In this document: positions 3,414-27,086 of the stretch, piece after piece
How positions within the stretch are numbered: the stretch's first letter is position 1
Layout of the letters: each line of letters starts with the position of its first letter
The notes under the pieces: model-generated
Databases searched by the model: none
What the model saw: the letters and a program-made list of their open reading frames with translations, nothing else
Told to the model about the DNA's origin: nothing
DNA from: Gottfriedia acidiceleris
Lineage (GTDB): Bacteria > Bacillota > Bacilli > Bacillales > Bacillaceae_G
DNA: 64,000 nucleotides
Direction of reading: 5' to 3'
NCBI RefSeq assembly: GCF_023115465.1
Contig: NZ_CP096034.1
Location: forward strand, 3,782,001 to 3,846,000
Made by a program: the position numbers and the translations under genes

Positions 3414-4568
3414 CTATTCATATCGAAGAGCTTGAATTGGATCAAGCTTAGACGCTTTATTTGCTGGAAAAACACCAAATACGATTCCAACTAATAAAGA
3501 GAATACAAATGATAACAGCATAACTGGTATAGAATATGCAATTGCTGTTCCAGTCGTTATAGTGAATATTTTTGCACTAATAACGCCTATTACAACGCCT
3601 ATTATTCCTCCAAGTGCACTTAATACCATTGATTCAATCAGGAATTGAAGAAGAATACTTCCACGCTTTGCTCCAATTGCTTTTCGTATACCGATTTCTT
3701 TTGTACGTTCTGAAACCGATACAAGCATAATATTCATAATACCGATACCACCAACAATAAGTGAGATCGCAGCACTTCCACCTAGCATTAATGTCATCGT
3801 TTTATTAACAGATGAAGCAGTTTCCATTAAATCCTCTGGACTCGAAACGCTATAGCTATCTTCATCGCCAATAATCGTTAACATCTTTTGTTCGATTCTA
3901 CGCAATGTAAAATTAATCATATTTTCATTATGTACTTTTACATAAACAGAACCAATTGAAGAAGTAGATGCCAAGCGCTGAGCTGTGCTAAGCGGAACAA
4001 AAATTGTACTGTCCCCACTTGTACCTAATGAACTACCAACTGATTGAAGTACCCCAACAACTCTAAATGATGTCCCATTCACTTTAACGTATTGACCAAC
4101 TGGATTTCCAAAACCGAATAATGTTCGTGCTGTGCTTGAACCAAGTACTGCTATTTTTGAGTGATTATCATTATCTAAATCTGCGATAAATCGCCCTGAT
4201 TGCAGCTCCAAATCACGAACTTTTAAATAAGGTGAAGTTGTTCCTGTCATTGACACTTGCGCGTTCGTTTGTCCGTTTTTTACAGTTACTCTTCCAGAGA
4301 CAGTCGGAGCAATTGCTTCAACATCACTAATTTCCTTAAGTTGATTGGCATCATCTTCTTTAAAAGTTACATCTGAGCCAGTAACACTTACTGTTAATAC
4401 ATTTGTACCTAAGCTTCCTATTTGATCTTGCACTTCTTTCGTTGATCCTTGTCCAATCGCAACCATCACAATAACGGAGGATACACCGATAATTATACCT
4501 AGCATCGTTAGGAAGGCTCTTACTTTATTTCCTTTAATGCTCTTAAGCGCCATTCTCAGTGTCTGCAA
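3414..4568 (-). CDS. MacB/YknZ-type ABC transporter permease (FtsX family)
   Basis: Architecture is that of MacB-like permeases: first membrane helix with AFLTMLGIIIGVSSVIVMVA, a large extracellular domain (about residues 50-260) and three C-terminal helices beginning LMLGGSAAISLIVGGIGIMNI, with the conserved ERTKEIGIRKAIGA loop. It ends LDPIQALRYE, the usual C-terminus. The frame is open to 4619, but the strong ribosome site GGAGGAG lies inside that extension, 5-6 bases before a TTG at 4568, which is the better start (384 residues; overlap of 26 bases with the ATPase gene). With the next two genes it forms a three-part exporter, probably for a peptide or toxic compound. Confidence 0.9.
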   Translation of the reverse strand: MQTLRMALKSIKGNKVRAFLTMLGIIIGVSSVIVMVAIGQGSTKEVQDQIGSLGTNVLTVSVTGSDVTFKEDDANQLKEISDVEAIAPTVSGRVTVKNGQTNAQVSMTGTTSPYLKVRDLELQSGRFIADLDNDNHSKIAVLGSSTARTLFGFGNPVGQYVKVNGTSFRVVGVLQSVGSSLGTSGDSTIFVPLSTAQRLASTSSIGSVYVKVHNENMINFTLRRIEQKMLTIIGDEDSYSVSSPEDLMETASSVNKTMTLMLGGSAAISLIVGGIGIMNIMLVSVSERTKEIGIRKAIGAKRGSILLQFLIESMVLSALGGIIGVVIGVISAKIFTITTGTAIAYSIPVMLLSFVFSLLVGIVFGVFPANKASKLDPIQALRYE

Positions 4569-5262
4569 ACCATTCTCCTCCATTCTCGTATAAATTGCCA
4601 TCGTGAATTCGCACAACACGATTTGCTTGTTTTGCTACTTCTAAATCATGTGTAATTAAGATAATCGTATGCCCTTGCTCATTTAACAAATTCATAATCT
4701 CCAAAATTTCCTTACTTGTTTTACTATCAAGAGCACCCGTCGGTTCATCTGCTAGTAAAATAGGAGGGCTTCCAGCAAGGGCACGCGCAATTGCGACACG
4801 CTGCTGCTGCCCCCCTGATAATTGTGTAGGTAAATGATTTGCTCGATCTACTAATCCTACTTTTTTTAACGCCGAAAGAGCAATTTCTCTTCGTTCAGCT
4901 GTTTTCATCCCTCTATAAATGAGAGGAAGTTCTACATTTTCTACTGCAGTTAACTTTGGTATAAGATTGAAATTTTGAAAAATAAATCCAATCTTTTCAT
5001 TTCGTATAGTCGCTAGTTGCGAGCTCTTCATTTGCCCTACATCTTCATTATCAATCAAATATCTACCAGAATCGGGTCGGTCTAAGCATCCAATCATGTT
5101 CATAAATGTTGACTTCCCTGAACCTGATGGACCGATGACTGATATAAAATCACCCTTTTGGATATCAAGCGATACACTCTGAAGAGCTATTACTGTTTCA
5201 CCGCCAAGTTCATACATTTTCGTCATGTTTTTTATTTGAATAATCGGCTCAAAGTTAGTCAT
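4543..5262 (-). CDS. MacB/YknY-type ABC transporter ATP-binding protein
   Basis: A complete 239-residue ATPase of the lipoprotein-release/MacB class: Walker A GPSGSGKST near residue 45, Q-loop at IFQNFNLIP, signature LSGGQQQRVAIARAL, Walker B ILLADEPTGALD and switch His in LITHDLEVA. Its ATG overlaps the stop of the adaptor gene (TAATG) and its 3' end overlaps the permease gene, so the three proteins are translationally coupled. It powers the permease from the cytoplasmic side. Confidence 0.95.
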   Translation of the reverse strand: MTNFEPIIQIKNMTKMYELGGETVIALQSVSLDIQKGDFISVIGPSGSGKSTFMNMIGCLDRPDSGRYLIDNEDVGQMKSSQLATIRNEKIGFIFQNFNLIPKLTAVENVELPLIYRGMKTAERREIALSALKKVGLVDRANHLPTQLSGGQQQRVAIARALAGSPPILLADEPTGALDSKTSKEILEIMNLLNEQGHTIILITHDLEVAKQANRVVRIHDGNLYENGGEWFADTENGA

Positions 5263-6491
5263 TATTTACCTCCTTGTCCGCCACCTGTTTGGATTCTTTC
5301 AGTAGTTCTTCCTCCGAAGCTACCTCCACCTTGGAAGCCACCACCTGGAAAGTTGCCACCTTGCATCATAAATCCACCAGAATTACCTCTAGATTGAACG
5401 CTCGGAATTTCAATAGACTCACCTTCACTTAATCCACTTGTAATTTCTACATTCGTATCATTAGAAATACCAGTTTTTACTGTAACTTTCTTTGTAGATT
5501 CTCCAGCATCATTTGTAGATGAAGCAACTAGTACATATTTTTCATTTCCATTTTTATACACTGCTTCTACTGGAACATATAGAGTATCTGCTTTACTTTG
5601 TATTAAAATACTTGCTTCAGTTGACATACCAATTTTCAAACCTTTTGGATTTTTAATTTTTACAGTTACATCAAATGTTGAAACGCCATTTGTCGACGTG
5701 CCTTCATTTGCTACTTTCGTTACAATCCCATCGAATGTTTGACCCTCAAATGCACTTGCTGTTATTTTTACTGACTGACCAACTTTTACCTTAGTGATAT
5801 CTAATTCATCAACACTGATTGTTGTTTCCAAAGAACTATAATTTGTTATATGTGCCAATGTCGCAGAGCTTTGTACAGAATCTCCACTATTAACAGCAAG
5901 ACTAGTAATTGTACCAGCAACTGGAGCCTGTAAGATACTACCATCTGTAAATTTCACTAGTGTGTCACCAGTTTTTACAACTGAGCCTTCCTTCACAAAT
6001 ACAGTATCCGCTACTAAACTACTACCTCCTCCAGTACTAGAGTTATTTGAGGAACTGTCACCATCTTCTCTGGTTATCGGTAATGTGACTCCATCTTCAT
6101 CTTCCATACGCATTAGAACTTTTCCTTGCGATGCTCCGCTACTGCTACTTACATAAACCTTTGTAATTTCTCCATCTTTTGGAGCCGTAACAACATCACC
6201 ATTTTTAAATGTCACAAGTGTGTCACCCTTATCTACTGATTCTCCAGAAGAAACACTTACACTATCCACAACTAGTATTGTATTTGCCGCAGTAACATCT
6301 TCATCAGTATTTGCAGTTACCGAACCCGATCCTGTAACAGCTACTTCTAACTTTCCTTTTTGTGCCGTAATTGTTTGTGCTGTAGCCATCACATTTAGGG
6401 CTTGATTTGCTTGACTCTTACTATATATGAACCAACCACTTCCTCCTCCAACAGCAACAACTATAAATGAAATAATAACCCACTTTTTCAA
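5262..6491 (-). CDS. HlyD/YknX-type efflux adaptor protein
   Basis: First gene of the exporter operon. A single N-terminal membrane anchor (WVIISFIVVAVGGGSGW), then two lipoyl-like half domains (VDSVSVSSGESVDKGDTLV and VADTVFVKEGSVVKTGDTLV), a beta-barrel segment and a Gly-rich C-terminus (GGFQGGGSFGG). The reading frame is open to 6566, but a ribosome site GGAGAGGAG lies 9 bases before TTG 6491, which gives the standard short cytoplasmic start MKKW; this start is preferred (409 residues). The linker between the lipoyl halves is unusually short and Ser/Gly-rich, with no long coiled-coil hairpin, as in YknX-type proteins that do not need an outer-membrane channel. Confidence 0.9.
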   Translation of the reverse strand: MKKWVIISFIVVAVGGGSGWFIYSKSQANQALNVMATAQTITAQKGKLEVAVTGSGSVTANTDEDVTAANTILVVDSVSVSSGESVDKGDTLVTFKNGDVVTAPKDGEITKVYVSSSSGASQGKVLMRMEDEDGVTLPITREDGDSSSNNSSTGGGSSLVADTVFVKEGSVVKTGDTLVKFTDGSILQAPVAGTITSLAVNSGDSVQSSATLAHITNYSSLETTISVDELDITKVKVGQSVKITASAFEGQTFDGIVTKVANEGTSTNGVSTFDVTVKIKNPKGLKIGMSTEASILIQSKADTLYVPVEAVYKNGNEKYVLVASSTNDAGESTKKVTVKTGISNDTNVEITSGLSEGESIEIPSVQSRGNSGGFMMQGGNFPGGGFQGGGSFGGRTTERIQTGGGQGGK

Positions 6492-7498
6492 TTTTCTTTT
6501 CTCCTCTCCATCATTGAGATTGATATGAATAGATACCCGATTATCCTTTACATTTAAGAAAATCAAGGCTTGTCTTTCGTTTATACAGTAAACATACTCT
6601 AGTAGTGATCGCTTGTATTAGAGCTCGTTTTATTTATTTTTTTGCTCCTCCTAATTTCATTTGATAAGCTCATTTTGGATTGTGTACCTTAAATTTCCCT
6701 TAACAAAAATCAATGCTTTTTAATGAGGAGAGGATATTGGTCATATTCAAAGCATTTAAAACGCTTAATTTACGAGTATATAAAAACCCCCTTCTATGTT
6801 TTTGAAAGGGGATTTACTTGTAATTATCGATCTATTTAATATCTATTTCTTCCATTTAAATCTACAAAAATAGGAGTCGATTAAATACAATCAACTCCTT
6901 CGTACTTTTTGTATAAAAATAGTGCTTATTCATACTCTATCATGTTCAATCTTTAGTATGATTAAGTGGAAAATACCTATCCGTCTACCCTTAGTATCGT
7001 CTTTTTCCCACAAAAATCAAACTATTCTTATGCAACAAATCTGCCATTTAGGACAATAAAAAAATCGACTATTTTGCAGAATTTTATACTACATACGCAT
7101 GCGTTAGTTACTTAAAGGATCTTCAATTTAAAAGAACTAATCTTTTTTTTATAGAAGTGTATTAACTTGTCCACCACCATATACCAGTTAATACAACATA
7201 TTCGTAAGTATAGAAACAGTTCAAATCTATCTTTTAGTAATTCTTTCCATATATGTTTATTCATTCCTTAAAATGTTATTTTATGTAAAAAACATATGAC
7301 TTTTTTCATATTTCAGGAAAAATATACAGATTATATTGGAAATTTTTAACTTAACAGGTAATAGTTACCAATATAATTGAGGGCAAAAGTAATATACAAA
7401 GTAGTACAAAAATCATAACAATATATAGTTAGTTAAATATAGGTCAAGTCTAGATATCATCTGAGGAGCTTGCTAATAAATATAGAAAAGGTGATATT
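6492..7498. other. Gene-free stretch of about 1 kb with two hairpins
   Basis: No supported gene. A hairpin at about 6784-6814 (CCCCCTTC / GAAAGGGG) and a second at about 6871-6898 (GGAGTCGATT / AATCAACTCC, followed by T) look like terminators with no gene before them, so a gene may have been lost here. The last 200 bases must carry the promoter of the collagen-like gene, expected to be sporulation-specific, but I could not assign it. Confidence 0.4.
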
Positions 7499-11448: not shown

Positions 11449-12087
11449 CTAAATATACTTCCGATGAATATTCTTCCCATCATAACTAAACAACACTGAC
11501 TTATTCTCAATATTCGTCTCCAATCTCCAAATGAACCCCTCTACCCCACAACTGATGAATATAAGGCATTACCTTCTCAACATACTTCACATCAAGTTCC
11601 ATATGTTCATAGGAATGTTTCAAATAAAGCTCACCATTTTTTAAATAATCGCCCTCTTGAACAACTATATAAGGGAATCCTCCATTCACCCTACTAACTA
11701 CAAGTTGATCTCGTACATTTTCCCATGCCTTATCAGTGACTTTATATTCCTTACCTTGTCGTTGGAATAAATACATATCTTCACGCATGACAAGGTCTTT
11801 AGTTAAGTAATTTCGTATAAATGAACTATCAGACTCTAACTCTCGTACTTCAAACATTTTTTCTCGATCGCTGCCAGGTTTAACACCTAACTCTCTCATT
11901 TCTTTGGTCGGATTATTATATCGCTCTTCAATATCTTCAAACATTCTTAGTCCTAAGTAGTATGGATTAATACTTGTTTTAGAAGGTTGAACTACTCCTG
12001 CGTTTAGTTTTGCGTATTCAATTGCTTCGTTTGAATCGAGGTTTAGTTCACGCATGATGCGTATGTGCCAAAAACTTGCCCAGCCTT
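11449..12087 (-). pseudogene. spoVR: Displaced 3' fragment 1 of spoVR, frameshifted
   Basis: The 639 bases align end to end with 28320-28951 of intact spoVR, from the conserved EGWAS motif (about residue 265 of 474) to the stop codon. The length difference is exactly one 7-base tandem duplication (TCTCCAA twice, near 11519) that shifts the frame at the C-terminus, giving the ending HLEIGDEY. The rest keeps the SpoVR reading frame almost unchanged at protein level while many codons differ silently. About 110 bases of flank downstream of the stop also match the flank of the intact gene. No ribosome site precedes the internal MRELNLDS Met, so it is probably not translated. Confidence 0.9.
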
Positions 12088-12125
12088 CCGTCTCCTTAAG
12101 ATTTTAAAGACCTACCTTATTGCAA

Positions 12126-12331: not shown

Positions 12332-12925
12332 TTACACTTTATTAGTAACTTGTTTTGTATCTTTTTTATAAATTTTTTCCCAAGGCGTCCCTAAAAATGG
12401 AAGAGCCCAACGATCTAAACCATACCATCCCGCCACTTTCCACCCTAGAACTAGCCATGTAGCTAAAATAAACAATAGTGGATTAGAACTAAGTGTTCCC
12501 GCAAATAAGTAACTTACACTCATTAAACTACCAAAAAATGCAGCAATTCCTGTAAGTAATCCTAATATTAAACCTAATCCTACAAGAACTTCACCATATG
12601 CTACTAAATAAGAAAAGAATTTAGCATTTGGAAGTACCGTATGCTTTAAAAAACTAGCATACCAACCTGTTACATCTGGGTGCAGCATATTAGAATTAGC
12701 TTTTGCTAAAGCTCCTTGAGTAAACCCTTTTACTACAACACCAGCTTTTGATCCAGTCCAAACATCTGAATTTACTTTATCCCATCCAGCAGAAAGCCAC
12801 TCATACCCCAAGTAAAAACGAACAAGTAACCAAATCCAAGCAGATTTACTACTATTAAATAAAAAATTAGAAACGGGATTATCAGAAACAACAACATCAT
12901 ATCCGTCTACTTTTTTATTTACCAT
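12332..12925 (-). CDS. DoxX-family membrane protein
   Basis: 197 residues with four membrane segments (IWLLVRFYLGYEWLSAGW; FSYLVAYGEVLVGLGLILG; LTGIAAFFGSLMSVSYLFAG; PLLFILATWLVLGWKVAGW) and the family motif LVRFYLGYEWL followed by GWDK. The order and the ending GWYGLDRWALPFLG fit DoxX/DoxD-like proteins, which in various bacteria are subunits of thiosulfate:quinone oxidoreductase or act with peroxide-defence proteins. It shares a cargo block with two universal stress proteins on the same strand, which suggests stress or redox-related use. A palindrome at 13291-13310 lies in its long leader. Confidence 0.85.
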   Translation of the reverse strand: MVNKKVDGYDVVVSDNPVSNFLFNSSKSAWIWLLVRFYLGYEWLSAGWDKVNSDVWTGSKAGVVVKGFTQGALAKANSNMLHPDVTGWYASFLKHTVLPNAKFFSYLVAYGEVLVGLGLILGLLTGIAAFFGSLMSVSYLFAGTLSSNPLLFILATWLVLGWKVAGWYGLDRWALPFLGTPWEKIYKKDTKQVTNKV

Positions 12926-13446
12926 TTATTTGCCCCCTCTTGTACGAATTACTATTATATATTTATTAACAATTAAAAATATGTACAATGTGAAATTTAA
13001 TGTTTCGGTGGAGGTTAAAAAGAAATTTATTATTTATTTTTTTAAATTTGATATCGCATAATCTGTCCTAAAATACTATTTCTTTCTTTATTATTGGTAT
13101 GACATTAATTTATATGAAAATTGTATTTAATTTAAATCATATATCTAATTGTTTAAACAATGAATCCAAGCCTTTTTGCCTCATATGTCAGCAATACCGA
13201 AATTTCGGATGGGCTATATTGATTAATTCTAGTGTTCATTGAGATATGATCTTTCTTGCTAATTTAATTAGCTATACCATATCCTGTTACAATATGATCT
13301 ACATCATATTTGATGTTGTTTCGACTGATTTAAAAGATAGGTAGAGATTAATTTTTGAAACAGTCCCATCCTTTGTTGTCGCACTTTACAATATTTGTAA
13401 ATTTTACAGAAAAATAGCATCAAGTTAAACCAAAATTACCAAGTTA
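12926..13446. other. 520-base leader region of the DoxX gene
   Basis: No gene. It contains an 8+8 base palindrome at 13291-13310, described separately. The rest is AT-rich without hairpins followed by T. Confidence 0.5.
13291..13310. promoter_or_regulatory. 20-base palindrome, possible operator
   Basis: AATATGAT and ATCATATT form a perfect inverted repeat around CTAC. It is about 370 bases before the DoxX start and 137 bases behind the first UspA stop. The size suits a dimeric regulator, but it matches no consensus well enough to name one. Confidence 0.35.
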
Positions 13447-13884
13447 TTATTTAACAATGAATACTGGACAAGCAACTTTTTGCACAACATAATGACTGAC
13501 GCTTCCTAAGAACAACTCTTTCAGTTTACTCAATCCACGACTTCCCATTACAACAAGATCGGCTTTATTATTATTGATAAAATCAACAATCGTACCAGAA
13601 GGGATTCCTTCCAATACAAATGTTTTTGTACTGTTAGGAAGTTCTTTCAGCTTTTGATCTACTGCATTAAGAGCTATTTTTGCTATATCGTATTCTGTTT
13701 GGCGAATCTCTTCCACATTCAAAGTACCATAGTAAGTAACATCAACAGGTACATGAAATACTGTAATTACATTCAATTCGATACTTTTATCTTGTTTTGC
13801 CATCGTAATTGCCATTTCCAAAGCCTTTTTACTTAGCTCAGAATTATCATACGGAACTACAATTCTTGAACATACATCTAACAT
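13447..13884 (-). CDS. Universal stress protein A family
   Basis: 145 residues of UspA fold: N-terminal IVVPYDNSELSKKALEMA, and the ATP-binding signature near the C-terminus in DLVVMGSRGLSKLKE followed by LGSVSHYVVQKVACPVFIVK, i.e. the G-2x-G-9x-G-S pattern of ATP-binding members. A second, very similar copy lies immediately upstream on the same strand (14042-14464), so this is a tandem duplication. Such proteins act in the cytoplasm under starvation, oxygen or redox stress; the particular signal here is not visible. Confidence 0.9.
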   Translation of the reverse strand: MLDVCSRIVVPYDNSELSKKALEMAITMAKQDKSIELNVITVFHVPVDVTYYGTLNVEEIRQTEYDIAKIALNAVDQKLKELPNSTKTFVLEGIPSGTIVDFINNNKADLVVMGSRGLSKLKELFLGSVSHYVVQKVACPVFIVK

Positions 13885-14041
13885 CTATTTGATCCTCCTA
13901 TATTAATTTCTATTATTATTTTTAAATAAAATTTTAGTAAGTTCATAATAAAAATATATTTTATATTAGATACTCACCCTACTAATCTCACAAGCTTTGG
14001 AAGTAAAAAAATTTGTAAACCTTGCTTAAAATAAAATTCAA

Positions 14042-14464
14042 TCATTTAACGATTAATACTGGACAAGTAGCTTTTTGCAATACATAATGACTGACACTAC
14101 CTAAGAAAATTTCTTTTAATCCACTCAAACCACGACTTCCCATCACAACCAGATCGGCGTCTTCCTGCTTAACGAAATTCACAATCGTTTCAGTAGGGTT
14201 ACCTTCCAAAACAAATGATTTTGTCTTGTTTGGCAGAGAATTTAACTTTTTCTCAATTTCATTAAGTATTTCCTGAGCTGCTGAGATCTCTGCCTCAAGC
14301 ATCATTCGGTAATACGAGACGGTATAAGGAATATTTACAACTATAATAACTATCAATTCTATCTCTTCATCTTGTTTTGCTATATTCATTGCAGTTACTA
14401 ATGCCTTTTTGCCTAATTCAGAATTATCATATGGAACTACAATTTTGGAACATACAGTTAACAT
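14042..14464 (-). CDS. Universal stress protein A family, tandem paralogue
   Basis: 140 residues, closely similar to the neighbour at 13447-13884: IVVPYDNSELGKKALVTA at the start, and DLVVMGSRGLSGLKEIFLGS near the end, with the full ATP-binding motif. The two proteins differ mainly in the middle (the segment after the second strand is shortened). The gene is first in the block; a 157-base gap separates it from the paralogue, so each may have its own promoter. Confidence 0.9.
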   Translation of the reverse strand: MLTVCSKIVVPYDNSELGKKALVTAMNIAKQDEEIELIVIIVVNIPYTVSYYRMMLEAEISAAQEILNEIEKKLNSLPNKTKSFVLEGNPTETIVNFVKQEDADLVVMGSRGLSGLKEIFLGSVSHYVLQKATCPVLIVK

Positions 14465-14668: not shown

Positions 14669-15300
14669 TTAAATATACTTCCGATGAATGTTCTTCCCAT
14701 CATAACTAAACAACACAGATTTCCCCTCTATATTCGTCTCCAAATGAACCCCTCTACCCCACAACTGATGAATATAAGGCATTACCTTCTCAACATACTT
14801 CACATCAAGTTCCATATGTTCATAGGAATGTTTCAAATAAAGCTCACCATTTTTTAAATAATCGCCCTCTTGAACAACGATATATGGGAATCCTCCATTA
14901 ACTCGACTAACTACAAGTTGTTCTCGTACATTTTCCCATGCCTTATCAGTGACTTTATATTCCTTACCTTGTCGCTGGAATAAATACATATCCTCGCGCA
15001 TGACGAGGTCTTTAGTTAAGTAGTTTCGTATAAATGAACTATCAGACTCTAACTCACGAACTTCAAACATTTTTTCTCGACCGCTGCCAGGTTTTACACC
15101 TAACTCGCGCATTTCTTTTGTTGGGTTATTATATCGCTCTTCAATATCTTCAAACATTCTTAGTCCTAAGTAATATGGATTAATACTTGTTTTCGATGGT
15201 TGAACAACGCCTGCGTTTAGTTTTGCATATTCGATTGCTTCATTTGAGTCGAGATTTAGTTCTCGCATGATTCGGATGTGCCAGTAACTTGCCCAGCCTT
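14669..15300 (-). pseudogene. spoVR: Displaced 3' fragment 2 of spoVR, frame intact
   Basis: Exactly 632 bases, the same length as 28320-28951 of intact spoVR, with no insertion or deletion. It begins at the same EGWAS codon as fragment 1 and reads in frame to the end (…GKNIHRKYI). A 199-residue frame from an internal Met ([20 protein letters not shown]) exists, but no ribosome site precedes it. The codons differ silently at many places from the other copies. Downstream sequence differs from the other copies right after the stop codon. It is called a fragment because the N-terminal half of SpoVR is absent. Confidence 0.9.
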
Positions 15301-15465
15301 GTTTCTCTTAAAGATCTTCTTTTTTCAAAGTTAATATTTAGAATTTATTAGTGTTAGTGCAGCTAATAATGATCTTAACCGATTAGAAATCTAGAAAAAA
15401 TGAAATAACTATATATGGCTTCTTTAATTTGACAAAGAAGATGCTTCATATTTAGGGATGAACTG

Positions 15466-15515: not shown

Positions 15516-18500
15516 TTAATAAACCTTTACCGTTCTTGTTGCACTAATTAATTCTTTGGCATCCTTTACCGTTACATCTAAATATGTACCAGCTTTTTGC
15601 TTTGGTATATTTACTTTAAAATCCCCGTAGATATTTGCTTGAGACGTATAAACTTTTGTACCAATTTTTACTGAAGCAACTGCATATTTTTCAGTTTTTC
15701 CAGTAACTGTTGTTGAATAATACCTAACTGAACTCACAACGGGTATATTCGGTGCGACACGAGTAACTTTTAAAGAGTTAGCATTACTAACTTTTCCTGC
15801 AACAGTTGCAGTTACATTAATTGATATCCCACTGTTTTGGATCGGTATCGACACTTTGAAATTCCCTACACTATCAGCGTTAGCACTGTATGAATTTGTG
15901 CCAATTTTAACAGTTACTACTGCATATTTCTCGGTTTTTCCGGTAACCGTTGCAGCTTTATTGTTGATTGGATTAACAGCAGGTACATTCGGTGCAACTT
16001 TAGTAACCCGCATATTTTGAGCTAAACTGATGTTACCTGCTTTATCTTTCGCCGTAATGCTCAATTCCACGCCACTATTTTGAGTAGGTATCTTGATAGT
16101 GAATTTACCTAAAGAATCAGCATTGCCACTATATGATAATTTCCCAGCTGTCACAATAACCGTGGCTGCTTTTTCTGATATCCCAGTTACTGTGGTAGAT
16201 TTGTTTGTTACTGTATTAACTACCGGTATATCAGGAGCAACTCTAGTAACCTGCTTTTTCATTGGTAAGCTGATGTTACCTGCTGCATCCTGCGAGGTAA
16301 TGCTTAATTCCACACCATTGTTTTGAGCAGGTATCCTAACTATAAACTTTCCATCAGTGCCAGCAATGCCGCTATATGATAACGTGCCCGCCTTCACGAA
16401 AACCTTGGTTGCTTTTTCGGTTATCCCTGTTACTGTAGTCGATTTGTTTGTTACTGTATTAACCACTGGTATATCAGGAACTATTCTTGAAACTGTCACC
16501 TTTATAGTCTGACTTTGATTCTGGGCAAGATCAGTTGAAGTAACAGAAATCACTGTTCCACTATGTTGAACCGGGATAATTATTTTAAATTGGCCATTTG
16601 CATCAGCAGAAGAACTGTAAGTTTTACTACCTATAACAGCTTTAACAGTTGCTTTTGCTTCTGTTTTCCCTGTAATTTCAACTGCTTTATTGTTAACTGA
16701 ATTAACTGACGGTTCTGATGGTGGAGTTTTATCAATAACTGTTGTCCTAATACTAGGACTCACATTATTTGCAGTATCACTTGCAGTCACGGTTAAAACA
16801 GTACCTGCTTTTTGCAGTGAGATCGGTATTTCAAAACTTCCATCCTCTTTAGCATAGTCTTCAGCTATAAGTTCCTCACCCTTCATGATGATAATCTTTG
16901 CACCTGATTCTGAGTTGCCTTTAACTTTATTCGATGCATCTGTTACTGGAAAATCAAATGAAAGTTTCAACCATGGCGGTGTAACATCTTTCACAGTTAA
17001 TCGAACGGATTCACTACTATTGTGGAACAGGTCTTCTGCGAAAACTTCAATCATCGTTCCGGCTGCTTGTGGTTGAAATTCTATTGAAAACGTGCCATCC
17101 TCCGCATAGGCCGAGCCGATGACTGTTTCTCCAGCTACAACTTTAATAATCGATCCTTTATCCGTAACACCACTAATTTTTGCCATTTGATCTGTTATTT
17201 CATTAGTTAAGAGCTGTGGAACTGCTGGTGGTGTTCGGTCCACCACAGTAACATGCTTAGCCTCGCTAATATTTCCTGATGCATCTTTTGCAAATATAAG
17301 TACTTGTGTATCTGCCTTTAATTTTCCGATAGCTATTGAAAAATTACCATATTCATCTGATACATCAGTACCAAGTGATTCACTAGCGATCATTGCCTCA
17401 ACGGTAGAAAATGGCTCCGCTTTACCTGTGATTTCTACTGCACTATCAGTCACTTCATTTACGATAGGAACTTCTGGTGGTGTTTCATCCAAAACTGTCA
17501 CTTTGGTGATTGGGCTGGTTCTATTAAAGCTATCTCTAACCTTAATCTTTAATTCTGTTCCAACTTTTTGAAGTTTGATTGGAATCTGGAAGCTTCCATC
17601 ATGATGCGAATCTCCTTCACCAATCTTCTCATCGCCATTATAAATTTCTACAAGGCTATCCGCATCGGTTATGCCGCTAACCAATTGATCACGATCGCTT
17701 ACTTTTGCTACAACCGGTGCTTCCAATGCTCCTATTGGGTAACTGTTATCAAAAGGTTTATACGAAATTGTTGATACATCTAGCTTGTCACGATAGTTAA
17801 TATTATCATTCACATCAACTATCCCTTGGCTAATTTGTTTTGTATCAGTCACGCCCCAATAATTATTTTTCCCATCAAAAAGAATCCCTTTATATCCAGA
17901 GATATCCACCTTCAGCCGAGGGTAACCGAAAAAATTATTTTCGTTAATAAAAATGTTAGCAATTCCACCGTCAGGATCTCTACTAGTCAACTTTATGTCT
18001 GGAACATAATAGTCAAGTGGATTGATGAAAGTGTTATTTTTAATAATAATCTTCCCAAGACCATTATTAACATTTAGAGTTGCTTTTTGGCTAAAAAAGT
18101 TATGTTCAATGATAGAATCCAAAACTGATGAGGAAAGCGATATGGATCCATTTCGATACTGGTTATAGCGAAGAGTAACATTTTTATTTATAGTTGTTAC
18201 TAGAAAACCACCATTGTATCTTGATGGATAAAAATGGTCCGCATATTCAATTTGAATCATGCTGTTATTAAAATTACTGCCCTTTACATAGACATCTTGC
18301 AACTTGATCCGCTCTTGTTCTGTACCAACAGCAATTAATTTACCATTAACCGAAATCGGCGATCCATTTTTCCCAATCAGCTCAACCCCAGGTTCTATCG
18401 TCAGTGTTACCCCAGAATTAATCACGATGGGACCTGTTTGAATATATGGTGAGCCCTCTTTTGTTAAAACTCGATCTTCGCTGATTACCCCACTAATAAC

Positions 18501-19466
18501 CGAAGAAACCGTGTTAACTTGTTTCTCGATATAAGCCGATGAAATGGATCCAACATATTGCCCATCTAGTGTTTTCACTGGAAACCAGACAAATTGGTTC
18601 TTGCTTGTCTTATCCTCATCAAATTCAAATGGACCCTCAATGATTAAAGATGTATTAATTGGCAAAACTTTTTCAATACCCGATGCACCTGGTCCTTTTC
18701 GTAAATTAACTTTATCCTTTGTTGTCAGTACTCGGTCCCCTGCTTTTAATTCAATAGTTGTCGCATGAACACCCTCTACAATATATTCGGACTTTAAGAA
18801 TTCAATAGGGTCATCACTTGTTCTATCATAATTGAAATCCTTTACATCAAATGGATACCTTGCTAAATCGGTACCGTCCAAATAACTATCTTTTTTGATT
18901 TTTCCGAAAACTAACTCTTGATATGCTTCATGATTAATTTCTCCAGTATCTTGAAATAAAGGGCTATTCACTGGCACGGTACCATTGTACGCCATAACAG
19001 GAAAATACCAATTTTCAATGATATCTCGTCCTGCTCCATTAATGTGCGGAAGCGATGTCAAACTGGCCTTGTCATTAAGTATACGTACGCCTGTTTCGAT
19101 ATTGTAAAGGATATCATTCTTTAAGCGTTCTTTCTGTTCTTCTGTTAATGTTTTATCTGTGATTTGCATAATCCCAATTCCATTGTCCTTCGAGATGTAC
19201 GGCTTACCATCTACGAATTGTCTCCAATCGGATTCTTTTGTGGCAATACCTTTTACAACTTCTGGGGGAATATCTGCTTGAATTGCAGCGTTTGTCAACA
19301 AACAGTTAATATGTTGGAAAGTTGGGTTTTCATTTGATGTAATGGCACCATATTGATTTGCACATTTCAAAGCCCATTCTGGTTCTGATTCTGCTGTGGC
19401 TTTCCCATAAAACAAACTGATCATACATACCGTTAGTAATCCGGTTTTTAATAAAAAAGAATTCAT
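15516..19466 (-). CDS. Secreted lytic-transglycosylase-like protein with SH3, beta-helix and nine Ig-like repeats
   Basis: 1316 residues. A signal peptide (LLKTGLLTVCMISLFYGKATA) is followed by an SLT-type lysozyme fold (about 28-175): catalytic Glu in ATKESDWRQF, GIGIMQIT, and the VMAYNG end. Then an SH3b-like domain (about 245-320, KVNLRKGPGASG), a parallel beta-helix region (about 325-575, GVTLTIEPGVELIGKNG) and nine repeats of about 80 residues (585 to end), each starting near P-x-V-x-x-V and ending G-N-x-S plus T-V. Repeats 6 and 7 share 17 identical starting residues, so the array grew recently. There is no sortase signal or membrane anchor. It is probably a secreted or wall-associated peptidoglycan-binding enzyme or adhesin; role inferred from domains. 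Confidence 0.85.
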   Translation of the reverse strand: MNSFLLKTGLLTVCMISLFYGKATAESEPEWALKCANQYGAITSNENPTFQHINCLLTNAAIQADIPPEVVKGIATKESDWRQFVDGKPYISKDNGIGIMQITDKTLTEEQKERLKNDILYNIETGVRILNDKASLTSLPHINGAGRDIIENWYFPVMAYNGTVPVNSPLFQDTGEINHEAYQELVFGKIKKDSYLDGTDLARYPFDVKDFNYDRTSDDPIEFLKSEYIVEGVHATTIELKAGDRVLTTKDKVNLRKGPGASGIEKVLPINTSLIIEGPFEFDEDKTSKNQFVWFPVKTLDGQYVGSISSAYIEKQVNTVSSVISGVISEDRVLTKEGSPYIQTGPIVINSGVTLTIEPGVELIGKNGSPISVNGKLIAVGTEQERIKLQDVYVKGSNFNNSMIQIEYADHFYPSRYNGGFLVTTINKNVTLRYNQYRNGSISLSSSVLDSIIEHNFFSQKATLNVNNGLGKIIIKNNTFINPLDYYVPDIKLTSRDPDGGIANIFINENNFFGYPRLKVDISGYKGILFDGKNNYWGVTDTKQISQGIVDVNDNINYRDKLDVSTISYKPFDNSYPIGALEAPVVAKVSDRDQLVSGITDADSLVEIYNGDEKIGEGDSHHDGSFQIPIKLQKVGTELKIKVRDSFNRTSPITKVTVLDETPPEVPIVNEVTDSAVEITGKAEPFSTVEAMIASESLGTDVSDEYGNFSIAIGKLKADTQVLIFAKDASGNISEAKHVTVVDRTPPAVPQLLTNEITDQMAKISGVTDKGSIIKVVAGETVIGSAYAEDGTFSIEFQPQAAGTMIEVFAEDLFHNSSESVRLTVKDVTPPWLKLSFDFPVTDASNKVKGNSESGAKIIIMKGEELIAEDYAKEDGSFEIPISLQKAGTVLTVTASDTANNVSPSIRTTVIDKTPPSEPSVNSVNNKAVEITGKTEAKATVKAVIGSKTYSSSADANGQFKIIIPVQHSGTVISVTSTDLAQNQSQTIKVTVSRIVPDIPVVNTVTNKSTTVTGITEKATKVFVKAGTLSYSGIAGTDGKFIVRIPAQNNGVELSITSQDAAGNISLPMKKQVTRVAPDIPVVNTVTNKSTTVTGISEKAATVIVTAGKLSYSGNADSLGKFTIKIPTQNSGVELSITAKDKAGNISLAQNMRVTKVAPNVPAVNPINNKAATVTGKTEKYAVVTVKIGTNSYSANADSVGNFKVSIPIQNSGISINVTATVAGKVSNANSLKVTRVAPNIPVVSSVRYYSTTVTGKTEKYAVASVKIGTKVYTSQANIYGDFKVNIPKQKAGTYLDVTVKDAKELISATRTVKVY

Positions 19467-19745: not shown

Positions 19746-20289
19746 TCAAATATACTTCCGATGAATATTCTTCCCATCATAACTAAACAACACAGACTTA
19801 TTCTCAATATTCGTCTCTAGATGAACGCCTCTACCCCACAACTGATGAATATAAGGCATTACCTTCTCAACATACTTCACATCAAGTTCCATATGTTCAT
19901 AGGAATGCTTCAAATAAAGCTCACCATTTTTTAAGTAATCGCCCTCTTGAACAACGATATATGGGAATCCTCCATTTACTCGACTATCTACTAGTTGATC
20001 ACGTACATTTTCCCATGCTTTATTAGTAACTTTATACTCCTTACCTTGTCGCTGGAAAAGATACATATCTTCACGCATGACAAGATCTAGTTAAGTAGTT
20101 TCGTATAAATGAACTATCGGACTCTAATTCTCGTACTTCAAACATTTTTTCTCGACCACTGCCAGGTTTTACACCTAACTCTCTCATTTCTTTGCTTGGG
20201 TTATTATATCGCTCTTCAATATCTTCAAACATTCTTAGTCCTAAGTAGTATGGATTAATACTTGTTTTAGAAGGTTGAACTACTCCTGC
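19746..20289 (-). pseudogene. spoVR: Displaced 3' fragment 3 of spoVR, shorter and frameshifted
   Basis: Aligns with 28320-28865 of intact spoVR, from GVVQPSK (about residue 294) to the stop. It is two bases shorter because TT is missing near 20088, which breaks the frame inside the segment [11 protein letters not shown]; two shorter frames remain (19746-20078 and 20071-20313). The 5' break is at a different place from fragments 1 and 2 and is fused in frame to a piece of an unrelated gene (20290-20450). The protein sequence is otherwise close to the other copies, with silent codon differences and a few changes such as VVSRVNG to VDSRVNG. Confidence 0.9.
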
Positions 20290-20450
20290 TGGCAGGTTAG
20301 TCATAATGAACAAAACGGATTCAATTTTACTTTTCTCTACACATAAATTTCGAAACTCGCTGTCTTTTGCTACAAACTTTGAATAGTAATTCCACTTGAA
20401 ACACAGGACGTTTTCCTGTCAATTCTTTAAGAATATTAGTCACAAAATCC
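20290..20450 (-). pseudogene. 5' relic of an unknown gene fused to spoVR fragment 3
   Basis: GTG near 20449 after a GGGGAG ribosome site begins [20 protein letters not shown]. After a frameshift the frame continues [18 protein letters not shown] and runs, through MTNLPAG, directly into GVVQPSK of spoVR. This looks like the start of a foreign gene cut off by recombination at a short shared GCAGGAGTAGTTCA. The family is not recognised. Confidence 0.45.
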
Positions 20451-20482: not shown

Positions 20483-21091
20483 TTATACATCATTTTTTTT
20501 GTTTATCACAATATAAGGATAGACCATCATGTCACCTGTTGATGTATCTTTCCCAATCTTCTTTATTTCCCACTGATTTTCATGATAATTAGACTTGGCA
20601 CAATTTAACGCCTCTTCTTGATTGGAAGCACAGACCACGCATTCGTAACTTTCTGATTTCAAAAGATACAAATACAATGGAGGAAGATGAATGTATTTGC
20701 GTAAGCCTATTATTTTCTCTAATTTTCTTTCGAACATCTCAAGGTTATGTAATGAATGTTTGTGTTCTGTATTGTTACTCTCCATGTCTCCCAAATAATG
20801 ATCGACTTCTTTCACATATCCATCTGAAAACTCCACCCGAGTTATGCAAGTTGGATGGTCAGTTGCAAACACATCTGGCTCTGGATAGCTAAATGACTGA
20901 TAATCGAACTCTTCCAGTAACATTTCTAATTTCTTGATTTTATTCTTGGTAATCATGAATTCTTCTTCACCAAGACGCGCAACGTACATTTGTCCGTTCC
21001 ATTTAACAGTACCATCGTTTTTAACTTCTACGTCATACACGGGACAAGTGCCGTAGCACATTGTTCTGGACAAAAAGATTGTAGTAAACAT
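20483..21091 (-). CDS. DUF6438-like protein
   Basis: About 202 residues. The N-terminal part has the features I associate with DUF6438: SRTMCYGTCPVYDVEVKNDG, a beta-rich segment YVARLGEEEF, and CITRVEFSDGYVKEVDHYLGD. The C-terminal 60 residues (SYECVVCASNQEEALNCAK…) form a second small domain. The frame is open to 21106, but the ATG at 21091 with GGGCGGTG upstream is the better start. Function of the family is unknown; its members often occur as secreted or stray accessory genes. It lies in the cargo block between spoVR fragment 3 and the intact gene. Confidence 0.6.
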   Translation of the reverse strand: MFTTIFLSRTMCYGTCPVYDVEVKNDGTVKWNGQMYVARLGEEEFMITKNKIKKLEMLLEEFDYQSFSYPEPDVFATDHPTCITRVEFSDGYVKEVDHYLGDMESNNTEHKHSLHNLEMFERKLEKIIGLRKYIHLPPLYLYLLKSESYECVVCASNQEEALNCAKSNYHENQWEIKKIGKDTSTGDMMVYPYIVINKKNDV

Positions 21092-21105
21092 TTTCACACC
21101 GCCCA

Positions 21106-21345
21106 AATGTATTATTTATAAATGTATAACCATATTTATTTAAAACAGGTATAGGCACCAATGGTTTGGTACCTCCTCTTAAGTATTTCCCTACATGTAA
21201 GTGCTTGATTTCAATTTCCCATTTTTCATTGTGAGATGAAATTCAATTGTTGCAAATATCAAACACACCTTCATCATCAGTCTCTACTTCAACTGCACTT
21301 ATAGCAGGAATGTTTTCAAGAAACTTTCTTTTTCTATAAAATGTC
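21106..21345 (-). pseudogene. Broken gene relic
   Basis: Between the DUF6438-like gene and the phosphatase-family gene the minus strand reads RKFLENIPAISAVEVETDDE and ends FDICNN-stop, then in another frame EKWEIEIKHLHVGKYLRGG and LVPIPVLNKYGYTFINN. Both look like real protein but are out of frame with each other and lack starts. Probably the remains of one or two genes lost in rearrangement; family unknown. Confidence 0.35.
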
Positions 21346-22044
21346 TACAATTATAGGGGAATGATCACTGTATCTGTGCCATTCTTCGTAATCTCCAATA
21401 GTAAATTTCGTAACATTTTGAAGTAATTCTTCATTAACAAAACAATAATCAATATGAAATGGTTTATCAGCATGATTATAATGATAGTAAGTTGCTTTAC
21501 TTTCCCTTCCATATTCTTCATGATTTAAAGAGTGATAGCAACTTTCAATATTATACCTACTAAATATATCGATGATTTTTTCAAACCCTTGGCCTCTTGA
21601 AATTCCAGAATAACTAGTGGCTAATTTTTTATCTATATTAAAATCACCGATAATAATAACTCGTTCATTTTTAAGTAAATGTTCATATTCCATTAATGCT
21701 GTATAAAGTAATTTACCATAAGAAGAATAACCTGGAGTCCGTATCATCCAAACTGCGATCAATATAAAATCTGTTTTCCCTGTTACTTTAATTGGAATAA
21801 ACCACTCATATTTGATTTTATCTTCAAGGAGTGAAAATTGATAATCATTTGAAAATGAGAATATTCCTAAACCTATTCCACCTTCTTTTCCTTTCCAAAC
21901 AGAGTCGAAATGTTTGGTATTTTGAATTTTTGATGGGTGCACACATTCTGGTATTACAGCAATATCAGAGCCAACTCCCAATAGCTTTTCATACTTTTCT
22001 ATACTAAGAAGCCCTCGTCGGCAATTCCATGAAAGTATTTTCAT
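21334..22044 (-). CDS. Endonuclease/exonuclease/phosphatase-fold hydrolase
   Basis: 236 residues with all signature blocks of the DNase I-like fold: MKILSWNCRRGL (Asn of the metal site), AVIPECVHP (catalytic Glu), IIIGDFNIDKK (Asp/Asn), FHIDYCFV and the final YSDHSPIIVDIL (Asp-His pair). There is no signal peptide, so it acts in the cytoplasm. Members cut DNA, RNA or phosphoesters; the substrate cannot be told. It sits three genes away from a restriction system in an accessory block, so a defence role is possible but unproven. Confidence 0.85.
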   Translation of the reverse strand: MKILSWNCRRGLLSIEKYEKLLGVGSDIAVIPECVHPSKIQNTKHFDSVWKGKEGGIGLGIFSFSNDYQFSLLEDKIKYEWFIPIKVTGKTDFILIAVWMIRTPGYSSYGKLLYTALMEYEHLLKNERVIIIGDFNIDKKLATSYSGISRGQGFEKIIDIFSRYNIESCYHSLNHEEYGRESKATYYHYNHADKPFHIDYCFVNEELLQNVTKFTIGDYEEWHRYSDHSPIIVDIL

Positions 22045-22168
22045 TTATAATCCTCCAATATATATAAGTAGGGAATCTCTAACTTGTCAATTACTTCAAT
22101 TCTATAATTCACATATAATACCTTTTATTTCACATCTCCAGTAACAAATCCTTTTTCAATACAAAGTC

Positions 22169-22363
22169 TTATAATATCATCAAAAATTTCTTGAAACACT
22201 GTACTATTTTTGAATCTTCTACGTCTATTTTTGCTAAATGTTCATATATAAAAGTGAAATCTATTTTTTCTTTAATTTGGCGTAAAATATGGTTACTTGG
22301 TACAAAGTCATTTAAATCAATAAACTCTAATTTATTTATACTTTCTTCTTTTCTACCCATCAT
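22169..22363 (-). mobile_element. Relic of an IS1182-like transposase (N-terminus only)
   Basis: 64 residues: GRKEESINKLEFIDLNDFVP, then SNHILRQIKEKIDFTFIYEH, which is the N-terminal region of IS1182-type DDE transposases (…LDDLVP-DHLLRKI…DFSFI). The catalytic part is absent and the reading frame stops after 64 residues. The 250 bases beyond its start (22370-22620) hold no gene and may contain the element's end. No intact transposase exists in the window. Confidence 0.6.
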
Positions 22364-22628
22364 AAGAATTCCTCCAATAAAAAACCTGTATATACTAAAA
22401 TCTACACAGGTATACAGATTCCTATTTAATTTGTCAACAGCCCCATTTGGGTGCTTTTTCTTGTGTAAGCCTCAAAACGTGGCTATTGTATTTCCATATT
22501 TACAATTATGGCCTGAAATTCACCTGCTCCCTCAAGCTTTTAACAGTACCAGTTCACCAGGTACTATGACTTACTTTATCTCCAATGTTCCATTCTATTG
22601 TTTTAAGTATAAAAAAAGTTGTTAGATT

Positions 22629-23942
22629 TTATAACAAATGGACTGTAACATTTAGTGACTTTTCATTTTTATTAGTCATGGAGTGTATTTTAATACGTTC
22701 ATTCATTGTATCCTTTACATCAATCATCCCAATAAATAGCTTGCCTTCAACCATTTCTTCGTTTTTTTCCTTTACGTAAACTCCTTCATGGTTGTCTTTA
22801 ATCAATTCCATATAGTCCATTAGTTCACGTAATCCTGTAACAGCATATTCGGTACGATCTGTATCTTTCACTTCACCAATAATGATTTTTAATAATTCAC
22901 CCTTTCCTTTTGTATAAACCTCTACAATTATATCTGGTCTACCACGCCAAAAGGTATTAACATCAAAATGGCTTTGCAAACTAGTTTTTGCAATCCTCAA
23001 AGCGTCTTTCATTGAACTTAGTTTTTTCATGATAAATGGGTGTTCATCTCTAGCAACTTCTTCAGAAGATATATTAAACGAAATATTAGAAGATCCAGTA
23101 GAGTTGTGATAAATTTGGTATAAATGTCCATCTGTTTCCCAGCTTGCAACAAGATTGTTCCGTCCATCAATAAGACGTAACCGGGCATTTTCTGTGCTGT
23201 TTTTGATTAATTGTATTACCCAGAACAACTCAAATAACACTTCTTCTTTTTCAGGAAAGATAAAGGTTTCAGTAATCAATGCTTCCAAAACTTCCTTGTC
23301 AATCTTCCTTGTCATAATTTCTCGATAATCCATGAGAAGTTTAGCAGCTTGATTGTATAAAGAATTACGGTGCCTCAATGTTTTCATAATCATTCGGTTA
23401 GTGACCTTGCTGTGATTCGAATCTACCTTTGAAAGATAGATATTTTTTCGAATCATTTCTTCAACAATGTCCTTCAGTATTTTCCACTCAGAAAAATACG
23501 AGTAATTCTCAAGACGAGTAGTATCTATTTTAAAAAATAATATGTTATAAAGTGTATAGAGCAACTCTTTTAGGACGAGGTTTTCAGTAATATCATAGGA
23601 TCGAATTGATTCATTGCATGAAAAAATTGTATGGTCTAGATGATTTATCTTTAGACGTTCTTTCACGGTATTTGACCAATGGATTTGTCCTCGTACTTCT
23701 CCCATATAAGTTTCATTTGTCATTCTTGTAGAAGTTTTAAAGTTGCGAATCAGTATAGGCAATTCCCGAACAAACTGCTTAACATCATCACGAAGTAAAT
23801 AATGAATCATTAACAGCTGTTCAAACTGCGATATATTTAATTGTGCCTTCTTGATAAAAGAATTTATCCCAATCTTTCCATCTTTTAGATAAATAATCAG
23901 AAAGTCACTAATCTCTTCCATGATTTCAGTCCGATTCATCAT
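22629..23942 (-). CDS. McrC-like nuclease subunit of a type IV restriction system
   Basis: 437 residues; the ATG directly follows the stop of the ATPase gene (TAAATG) with AAGGAG as ribosome site, so the pair is co-expressed. The middle has YMGEVRGQIHWSNTVKE, a motif of McrC-like proteins, and the C-terminus carries a PD-(D/E)XK nuclease core: RPDIIVEV (about 335) and IIIGEVKDT (about 355), giving D…E-x-K. Such subunits cut DNA once the partner AAA+ motor has recognised a modified site. Recognition specificity is set by the partner. It differs much from E. coli McrC, so the name is used in the broad sense. Confidence 0.75.
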   Translation of the reverse strand: MMNRTEIMEEISDFLIIYLKDGKIGINSFIKKAQLNISQFEQLLMIHYLLRDDVKQFVRELPILIRNFKTSTRMTNETYMGEVRGQIHWSNTVKERLKINHLDHTIFSCNESIRSYDITENLVLKELLYTLYNILFFKIDTTRLENYSYFSEWKILKDIVEEMIRKNIYLSKVDSNHSKVTNRMIMKTLRHRNSLYNQAAKLLMDYREIMTRKIDKEVLEALITETFIFPEKEEVLFELFWVIQLIKNSTENARLRLIDGRNNLVASWETDGHLYQIYHNSTGSSNISFNISSEEVARDEHPFIMKKLSSMKDALRIAKTSLQSHFDVNTFWRGRPDIIVEVYTKGKGELLKIIIGEVKDTDRTEYAVTGLRELMDYMELIKDNHEGVYVKEKNEEMVEGKLFIGMIDVKDTMNERIKIHSMTNKNEKSLNVTVHLL

Positions 23943-26153: not shown

Positions 26154-26468
26154 TTACACAGTTCACCTTTCTGCCACACTAACATTTACTTATTAAAGGT
26201 CTTGCTGTTCAAAGGTTCAGTTTATCACTATTTAATTTATATATTGAATCGAATTTTATACATCGTTAGACAATTCAACGATTACATACACTGAAGTATC
26301 CCTGATGTTGCATAAAATAATGGGGGGATATTCAAAAAAACTTACTCAATTATATGGTCCGATTGTTCAGGAACGCTACATGAATATCGCTAGGCCATTA
26401 ATAGATTTTAAGTTACAGTGATAAATAGAGTTGATATATTTTTTTTTCTAAAATTAATTTATATTTTA
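26154..26468. other. Gap before the ECF sigma gene
   Basis: No firm gene. A 33-residue frame at 26320-26421 (plus strand: MGGYSKKLTQLYGPIVQERY…) reads like coding sequence but has no ribosome site and is probably a relic. Confidence 0.3.
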
Positions 26469-26496
26469 GGAACCTTTTATTTATCACTTTCGTCTA
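26469..26496 (+). promoter_or_regulatory. ECF-type promoter for autoregulation
   Basis: GGAACC (26469-26474), exactly 16 bases, then CGTCTA (26491-26496), followed after 26 bases by the ATG of the ECF sigma gene. AAC-type -35 and CGTC-type -10 boxes with a 16-base spacer are the standard layout of ECF sigma promoters in bacilli, so the factor most likely drives its own gene. Confidence 0.75.
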
Positions 26497-26522
26497 ATGT
26501 ATGTGAAGAAAGGGGGATTTAG

Positions 26523-27086
26523 ATGCAAGTAGAGACAATAGGGGAAGAAATCTCAAGTTCATCTGAAATCAGTCACATGTCCAATGAGCAACTGTTAGTC
26601 TGGCTGATGGAGGAGTACGGCAATATGATTGTTCGTCTTGCCTATACATATGTTAAACAAAAACAAGTAGCAGAGGATATCGCGCAGGAGGTATTTATTA
26701 GCTGCTATAATGGACTCGATTGTTTCCAAAAGAAAGCTTCATTCAAGACGTGGCTTTACAGTATTACCGTTAATAAATGTAAAGATTATGTTAGTAGTTG
26801 GTCTTATAAACATATTCATTATAAAGATTTCTTTAGTATGTTAAAGAAAGACACTTTGGTGGATTCCGAGGTTATGGATCGTGAAAAGAATGAGGTTATT
26901 TTTAATAAGACGCTAGAACTACCAATCAAGTTGAGAGAGGTAATTATTCTTCATTATTATGAGGATCTGTCGATAAGCGAAATCTCCGAATCGTTAGCAA
27001 TTAATTCAAACACAGTCAAAACCAGGCTTCATAGAGCAAGGAAGAAGCTCAAAGTTTTTTTTGAGGAGGATGAAATTAATGATTAA
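26523..27086 (+). CDS. ECF RNA polymerase sigma factor
   Basis: 187 residues. Region 2: LVWLMEEYGNMIVRLAYTYV and VAEDIAQEVFISCYNGL, with the core-binding and -10 recognition helices; then FKTWLYSITVNKCKDYV. Region 4: ELPIKLREVIILHYYEDLSI, SEISESLAINSNTVKTRLHR, a typical -35 binding helix-turn-helix. A strong AAAGGGGGA ribosome site precedes the ATG. Its 3' end overlaps a small frame belonging to the anti-sigma gene. The regulon would include genes with the GGAAC-N16-CGTC promoter; none other is visible in the window. Confidence 0.9.
   Translation: MQVETIGEEISSSSEISHMSNEQLLVWLMEEYGNMIVRLAYTYVKQKQVAEDIAQEVFISCYNGLDCFQKKASFKTWLYSITVNKCKDYVSSWSYKHIHYKDFFSMLKKDTLVDSEVMDREKNEVIFNKTLELPIKLREVIILHYYEDLSISEISESLAINSNTVKTRLHRARKKLKVFFEEDEIND

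Follow-up and report, generated by a model that had tools for sequence, protein, structure and literature searches.

The EGWAS codons of spoVR are probably the attachment site (attB) of a family of large serine recombinases (LSRs), and the truncated spoVR copies found in Gottfriedia acidiceleris are probably attR scars, which repeated rounds of insertion together with homologous recombination appear to have built into an array. The window, that is, the whole stretch of 64,000 nt analyzed here (NZ_CP096034.1, positions 3,782,001 to 3,846,000), carries on its minus strand an intact spoVR followed by fragment 3, fragment 2, and fragment 1, all in one orientation and with genes between them. Analyzed genomes are given G codes, the window's own genome being G000, and loci are given L codes. 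The features of the window are as follows.

28320-29744, minus strand: intact spoVR, 474 amino acids (ORF; PF04293, 506.7 bits)
28942-28952, minus strand: putative attB core GAAGGCTGGGC (EGWA codons) of intact spoVR; the same core lies at the cut of LSR-split spoVR genes
20483-28169, no strand assigned: cargo between intact spoVR and fragment 3 (Pfam)
19748-20289, minus strand: fragment 3, spoVR 3' copy with a broken frame; first 86 bp and arm lost (ORF list and alignment)
15516-19466, minus strand: cargo between fragments 3 and 2, a 1316-amino-acid protein (Pfam: nine Big_6 domains, one SLT domain)
15301-15324, minus strand: attP-type arm before fragment 2 (AAAAAGAAGATCTTTAAGAGAAAC); matrix rank 1 of 127,952, pattern match with one mismatch
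14670-15300, minus strand: fragment 2, spoVR 3' half, readable in frame as far as the natural stop
12332-14464, minus strand: cargo between fragments 2 and 1, a DoxX protein and two universal stress proteins (Pfam)
12088-12105, minus strand: attP-type arm before fragment 1, a divergent variant (matrix scans)
11449-12087, minus strand: fragment 1, spoVR 3' half (alignment to intact spoVR)
3414-6566, minus strand: HlyD-ABC-FtsX operon, a conserved operon that bounds the variable interval on its far side (relatives lie near spoVR arrays)

A common break in the spoVR copies of the genus

The preliminary description held that fragments 1 and 2 break at the same spoVR codon and share sequence beyond the break. 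Alignment confirmed the common codon, the GAA of EGWAS, at 12087 and 15300; the match to intact spoVR sets in at 12087/12088 for fragment 1 and at 15300 for fragment 2. The flanks quoted there for both fragments were correct, and intact spoVR has a different sequence at this place. Before the break, fragment 1 ends in AAAATCTTAAGGAGACGG and fragment 2 in AAGATCTTTAAGAGAAAC, which are related over approximately 18 to 24 bp. For the fragment pair alone, this relatedness was barely above chance: the last 20 nt before the break gave a score of 6, which was reached by 3.4% of 20,000 random 20-mers of the window (p = 0.034). It became clear once relatives of the genus were added. With a matrix built from 20 other junctions of the genus, the end of fragment 2 ranked 1st and that of fragment 1 ranked 61st of 127,952 window positions, and intact spoVR ranked 56,379th.

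The genus sample comprised 13 genomes, the window's own included, several of which are drafts with arrays running to contig ends. A PF04293 search of these genomes gave many spoVR 3' pieces. When the fetched loci were analyzed by blastn, 68 spoVR matches were obtained, 23 full-length (both paralogs) and 45 partial. Break positions scattered at random among relatives, which were looked for as evidence against a common site, were not seen: 22 of the 45 partial matches start at query bases 790 to 799, 4 start at 735 to 772, and 19 start later (three of these 19 are further pieces of copies included above, and one is truncated at the end of a contig). The 22 copies begin within 10 bp of the EGWAS break, and each carries a version of a shared end, (a)aaGAAGATCTTTRAGAGAAAC, before AAGGCTGGGC; upstream of this end, the DNA varies by cassette. 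Among 19 genomes of the family, the corresponding junction pattern, with up to three mismatches, was matched in 9, each of them a member of the genus, and the reversed control gave 0. A match to this pattern at G003:C30:123613 was rejected, as no spoVR sequence follows it.

The four copies starting at 735 to 772 are older, lie at other places, and keep 22 to 59 bp more of the gene. Old spoVR pieces that start 22 to 59 bp before the core lie near glutamine-synthetase-type genes (L036, L055, L063, and L070); the short 5' remnant of some of them is paralog-like, and the remainder is of the spoVR1 type. A further degraded spoVR piece lies between subtilase-type genes at G000:C1:2780940-2781238, approximately 1 Mb from the window.

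LSR elements that split spoVR at the same codons

LSR relatives were present in 14 of 397 Bacillales genomes (E <= 1e-90), and in 11 of these 14 a spoVR half cut at the EGWAS codons was found with or near the LSR. Both halves lie on one contig in G087, G172, G191, G166, G167, G244, and G322; the 5' half stands alone beside the LSR in G046, G195, and G326, and the 3' half stands alone in G395. G326 departs from spoVR inside the core, after GAAGGCTG, and its 3' half with the arm is on another contig. The other three LSR genomes had no spoVR nearby: in G259 the LSR is on a 7.6-kb contig, and in G114 and G038 none was found within 20 kb on either side. In an order-wide listing of the spoVR family in 150 genomes, where fragment numbers are to be read as "at least," spoVR was present in G046 and G087, among the matches listed, only as the 5' half in one piece. 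The LSRs of these two elements have 489 and 485 amino acids and are 65% identical. In G087, the two spoVR halves are 21,480 bp apart, and the reconstructed attP reads as an imperfect palindrome about the core (AAGCACCTTTACTGAAC-GAAGGCTGGGCTTC-GTATTTCAAAGATGCTT). The seven elements with both ends seen measured 10.0, 10.8, 16.7, 21.5, 24.6, 41.3, and 45.0 kb.

The arms of these LSR elements resemble the fragment ends of the genus. Since spoVR is cut at the EGWAS codons by LSR elements with fragment-like arms, these codons are probably an LSR attB and the fragments attR half-sites. Thus, the earlier proposal of a preferred recombination site at this motif gained support, as spoVR is cut there in 11 of the 14 enzyme-bearing genomes. 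A pattern of arm plus core was found in 13 of 397 genomes from 11 genera (reversed control, 0); with one extra base between arm and core, it was found in 0 of 397 (reversed control, 2). Enzyme and pattern occurred together in 7 genomes versus 0.46 expected (hypergeometric p = 1.8e-8).

Seven other genera also show the same break downstream of an intact spoVR (G078, G037, G116 twice, G146, G013, G016, G027, and G206). It was seen at Ectobacillus antri L102 as well, which is not additional to G013. The LSR query gave no full-length LSR in these seven genera. Searches of other collections gave the following: no match in IMG/VR with the LSR query; no match in IMG/VR with an attR pattern that carried one extra base between arm and core, a negative of little weight given this spacing; no match in plasmids with fragment 1; and, at the protein level with the spoVR 3' half, distant SpoVR homologs only, both in phages and, among the 20 of 56 records listed, in plasmids.

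Two further arrangements were observed. In G195 (L287-L288), the split 5' half with the LSR is followed approximately 14 kb on by a complete, more distant spoVR, with weak 3' pieces behind. In IMG/VR, L177, L178, and L179 have ORFs of approximately 475 amino acids immediately preceding a spoVR from which the first ~52 codons are missing; the two of these ORFs that were checked are LSRs, approximately 30% identical to that of G087. They apparently mark a further LSR insertion site, which lies within the 5' part of spoVR and was set apart from the EGWAS site.

Relationship of the genus arms to the LSR family

A matrix was built from 12 distinct arms of other genera, 6 from LSR elements and 6 from passengers, with identical arms collapsed and those of G016, G146, G300, G275, and G326 left out. 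It placed 22 of 22 genus junctions, both window junctions included, in the best 1% of window positions. Of 127,964 positions, the end of fragment 2 ranked 132nd, that of fragment 1 ranked 536th, and intact spoVR ranked 2,682nd. Five of the 22 junctions fell in the best 0.1%, and 18 did so without the last three arm columns, whose omission was chosen after their difference had been seen (AAC in the genus versus ACG in the others). A stricter matrix from LSR-split elements alone (8 of the 11 were used) failed to set the genus junctions apart, with 1 of 22 in the best 0.1%; here fragment 2 ranked 897th, intact spoVR 1,120th, and fragment 1 2,356th, so that intact spoVR outscored fragment 1. We read the genus arms as members of the same family with drifted specificity, a reading that falls short of proof.

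An attL-type right arm was not found in the arrays of the genus with a pattern that did find that of G087. No close LSR relative was found in the 13 genus genomes, the best match to the G087 LSR being 28% identical. G000 has eight Phage_integrase (tyrosine) matches and nine serine-recombinase (resolvase-domain) matches, none of them in the window. Elsewhere in the genus, G012 has a tyrosine-recombinase match (G012:C1:1487482-1488039) approximately 4 kb away from its second spoVR paralog, and a 600-amino-acid ORF with a reverse-transcriptase domain, possibly belonging to a group II intron, lies between spoVR copies of G008 (L058:1286-3088).

Cargo genes between the copies

Discrete sets of cargo genes lie between the copies of the genus: an MFS/esterase/metallo-beta-lactamase-fold/TrmB set, a PTS with glycosyl hydrolase 1, an oligopeptide ABC transporter, GerA, an Ig-domain protein, DoxX with stress proteins, and a McrBC-like set (the Pfam annotation of cargo covers part of the ORFs). 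In the window, the cargo between intact spoVR and fragment 3 includes, by Pfam, a DUF6438 protein, an endonuclease/exonuclease-like protein, an ECF-type sigma factor with a DUF4179 protein, and an EVE + AAA_5 protein. The latter has a 437-amino-acid partner without a Pfam match; from the domains, and with no family match, we read the two as a McrBC-like pair.

The same sets occupy different positions in different arrays. The MFS set directly follows spoVR in G010 and G012, whereas in G006 it comes after another fragment; its left boundary is shared by three genomes. The PTS set is first in G006 and second in G012; the Ig-domain protein is first in G004, where a relative of the 1316-amino-acid Big_6 protein lies immediately behind spoVR, and second in the window. 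The three gene families of the DoxX and stress-protein set are present in the G004 array as well. Identities of the 3' halves in front of the same cassette were 93.0, 89.9, and 89.7% (MFS), 89.1% (PTS), and 93.0% (Big_6), compared with an all-pairs mean of 89.8% calculated with three outgroups left out. Copies in front of the same cassette were not clearly more alike than others.

The HlyD-ABC-FtsX operon has relatives near the spoVR arrays in loci of G002, G004, G006, G009, G011, and G012. The interval from spoVR to this operon measured 21.8 kb in G000, 10.3 kb in G002, 20.9 kb in G004, and 36.2 kb in G012. A hairpin-like motif of the ACTAAATGGCAG/CTGCCATTTAGT type abuts the break of fragment 3 at 20290, as TGGCAGGTTAGT; motifs of the ACTAAATGGCAG type lie near some cassette ends and occur elsewhere too.

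History of the fragments and of the spoVR 3' end

Differences between the fragments and the intact 3' half lie at third codon positions in 81% of cases, compared with 83.5% between intact genes and 78% among fragments. Because this divergence is mostly third-position, as between intact genes, the fragments appear to have diverged for the most part while they were still within whole genes and would thus be displaced, once-working spoVR ends. Twelve of 18 fragments are open to the natural stop, and 6 are frame-broken or stop early; the 6 include fragment 3, which was read from its lost start and whose frame break was seen in the ORF list and the alignment. In fragment 1, a 7-bp duplication within 11512-11539 broke the frame near its end. 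The count of 18 left out spoVR2 and the old copies, and 16 further spoVR copies are cut down.

When the intact spoVR was compared among ten array genomes, the 5' halves were closer to each other than the 3' halves were in 42 of 45 pairs (means, 94.5% for the 5' half and 91.7% for the 3' half). Thus, the working 3' half was probably exchanged between lineages, the intact gene receiving foreign 3' ends. Against the outgroups, the two halves were approximately equal for G007, the 3' half was slightly more alike for G003, and it was 1.5 to 3.1 points lower for G005. Similarity falls gradually along spoVR, with no step at the core; homologous exchange therefore blurred the signal or contributed to it. 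A second spoVR gene, present in G006 and G009, turns to spoVR1-type sequence some 240 bp into its 3' half; a contribution of homologous recombination through the copies is certain there. These paralogs (L051:13028-14467 and L061:8440-9879), whose last ~400 bp are of the spoVR1 type, lie approximately 1.2 kb behind a cassette fragment.

Proposed mechanism and alternatives

The mechanism proposed here starts from what can be read directly in the DNA, namely, the common junction, the similarity of the arms, the use of the same codons by LSR elements elsewhere, the third-position divergence, and the differing cargo. Insertion of an LSR element at EGWAS would give the order 5' half, attL, LSR element, attR, and 3' half. 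Each fragment would be an attR in which an attP arm (GATCTTTRAGAGAAAC and variants) is joined at GAAGGCTGGGC to the 3' half of an earlier resident spoVR. Cassettes behind the element would be carried along as units of 3' half, cargo, and arm: if attL recombined with a more distant attR, the element would excise together with the intervening copy and cargo. Once it had integrated at a new place, attL would pair with the inner attR, the LSR element would leave, and spoVR would be whole again with a foreign 3' half. The result would be a restored spoVR, then the cargo, and then, displaced as a fragment, the former 3' half of the host gene. Successive rounds of this kind, together with homologous recombination through the repeats of approximately 630 bp, would build and reshuffle the array, and the LSR would act in trans. 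It is the formation and spread of passengers that we infer, for which G322 offers a plausible intermediate. In this genome, a 45-kb LSR element stands in front of further spoVR 3' copies, with arms of two types, an arrangement compatible with mobilization of such units by a serine recombinase.

The preliminary description had also offered one ancestral event that was later copied. In this case, a single junction would have arisen in the genus, and all fragments would be copies spread by RecA-type recombination via the ~630-bp repeats, with no repeated action of a site-specific enzyme. Copying by homologous recombination does take place beside the site-specific breaks. Homologous crossovers inside the 3' half were seen, the 3' halves of different species are close (97.6% between fragment 3 of G000 and a G002 copy), the arrays have no remaining LSR, and the 3' halves change gradually along the gene. 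However, single copying leaves unexplained why different DNA abuts the ~24-bp end in different cassettes and why the same junction occurs in seven other genera, with their own arms, at the codon where LSR elements cut. An origin of all fragments by copying is therefore unlikely. It is more conceivable, though doubtful, that an LSR made the attR junctions and that a decayed element splitting spoVR was then rescued by an incoming intact spoVR with its downstream DNA, the passengers never having been mobile. The incoming DNA is assumed to be homologous on one side and illegitimate on the other. The DNA past the stop is indeed alike for approximately 75 to 95 bp behind intact spoVR and behind fragment 1, as if a native flank had been imported; no enzyme remains in the arrays, and the copies before the same cassettes give no demonstration of block travel. 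Against such a rescue speak the presence of the same cargo sets at different array positions in several genomes and the common left boundary of the MFS cassette in three genomes.

Maintenance of the fragments as a working C-terminal piece of SpoVR would fit the scarcity of changes at the first two codon positions and the frames that are open to the natural stop. It is nevertheless highly improbable given the broken or early-stopping frames and the cut-down copies, and divergence before displacement accounts for the codon pattern. As several genus genomes are drafts in which arrays end at contig ends, chance or an assembly artefact was also considered. We give it almost no credence, because the window's own genome is one contig, the 45 partial matches in 13 genomes have one preferred start, and the reversed-pattern controls gave 0.

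For the LSR-built array, a link to sporulation may be imagined, although we regard it as rather improbable: excising LSR elements would take circles of spoVR 3' half and cargo along in the mother cell, lysis would release them, and the spore would keep the array. If so, spoVR would serve spore formers as a platform for gene cassettes, one that is coupled to sporulation. Each cassette would repair the gene that it entered, and metabolic and defence genes would spread via a sporulation gene at little cost.

Relation to known systems

Integron cassettes, tycheposons, and e14/phage 21 in icd use tyrosine recombinases. Like the spoVR array, they either line up small cargo units that share a repeated recombination sequence or bring along a copy of the target gene's 3' end; in contrast, the window array has no tyrosine integrase, and the elements at the EGWAS site carry serine recombinases. 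In the staphylococcal cassette chromosome (SCC), serine-recombinase cassettes stand in tandem at one gene, some without a recombinase of their own. Similarly, tandem units with a repeated att sequence were found at spoVR, with cargo exchangeable between strains. However, gene and site differ from those of SCC, and the spoVR units each carry approximately 630 bp of the target gene and displace its old end.

Serine-recombinase elements that insert in sporulation genes, spoVR included, are described in PMC4191935 and PMC5595907. The insertion element vrin is placed in spoVR of Geobacillus thermoglucosidasius by PMC4191935, and the spoVR insertion case is placed in another species by PMC6957869. 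Its kin are skin in sigK, vfbin in spoVFB, SPbeta in spsM, and gin in gerE, all gene-intervening elements of sporulation genes. The split spoVR genes of the 11 genomes look like vrin-type members. The genus junctions share with this type an attP-type arm joined to spoVR at the core (22 of 22 in the best 1%; weaker with LSR arms alone). The window array differs in having no LSR of its own, whereas the split genes of other genera do carry one, and in its intact spoVR, which elsewhere is split in 11 of 14 LSR genomes. Compared with vrin, what remains in the window is the arm and the displaced 3' half, repeated with cargo. LSR insertion in spoVR, as in vrin, is known; a recombinase-less array with 3'-end replacement looks new. 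No description of spoVR cassette arrays was found in titles or abstract starts of the literature, mostly outside subscription journals.

With the proposed mechanism, the spoVR fragments would become a readable record of serial site-specific insertions. These insertions would explain why, in the four genus genomes measured, the interval between the conserved flanks varies from approximately 10 to 36 kb. They point to a cassette-exchange site in Bacillales that carries metabolic, transport, germination, and restriction genes, with candidate recombinases and att sites identified from sequence.

The gin element has three serine recombinases and is likened to SCC composites in PMC5595907, which records the existence of such composites. 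The G046 element likewise has three serine-recombinase-type ORFs. The nearest named relative of G395, in which spoVR is cut at EGWAS, is Parageobacillus (84.7%), a lead only toward vrin.
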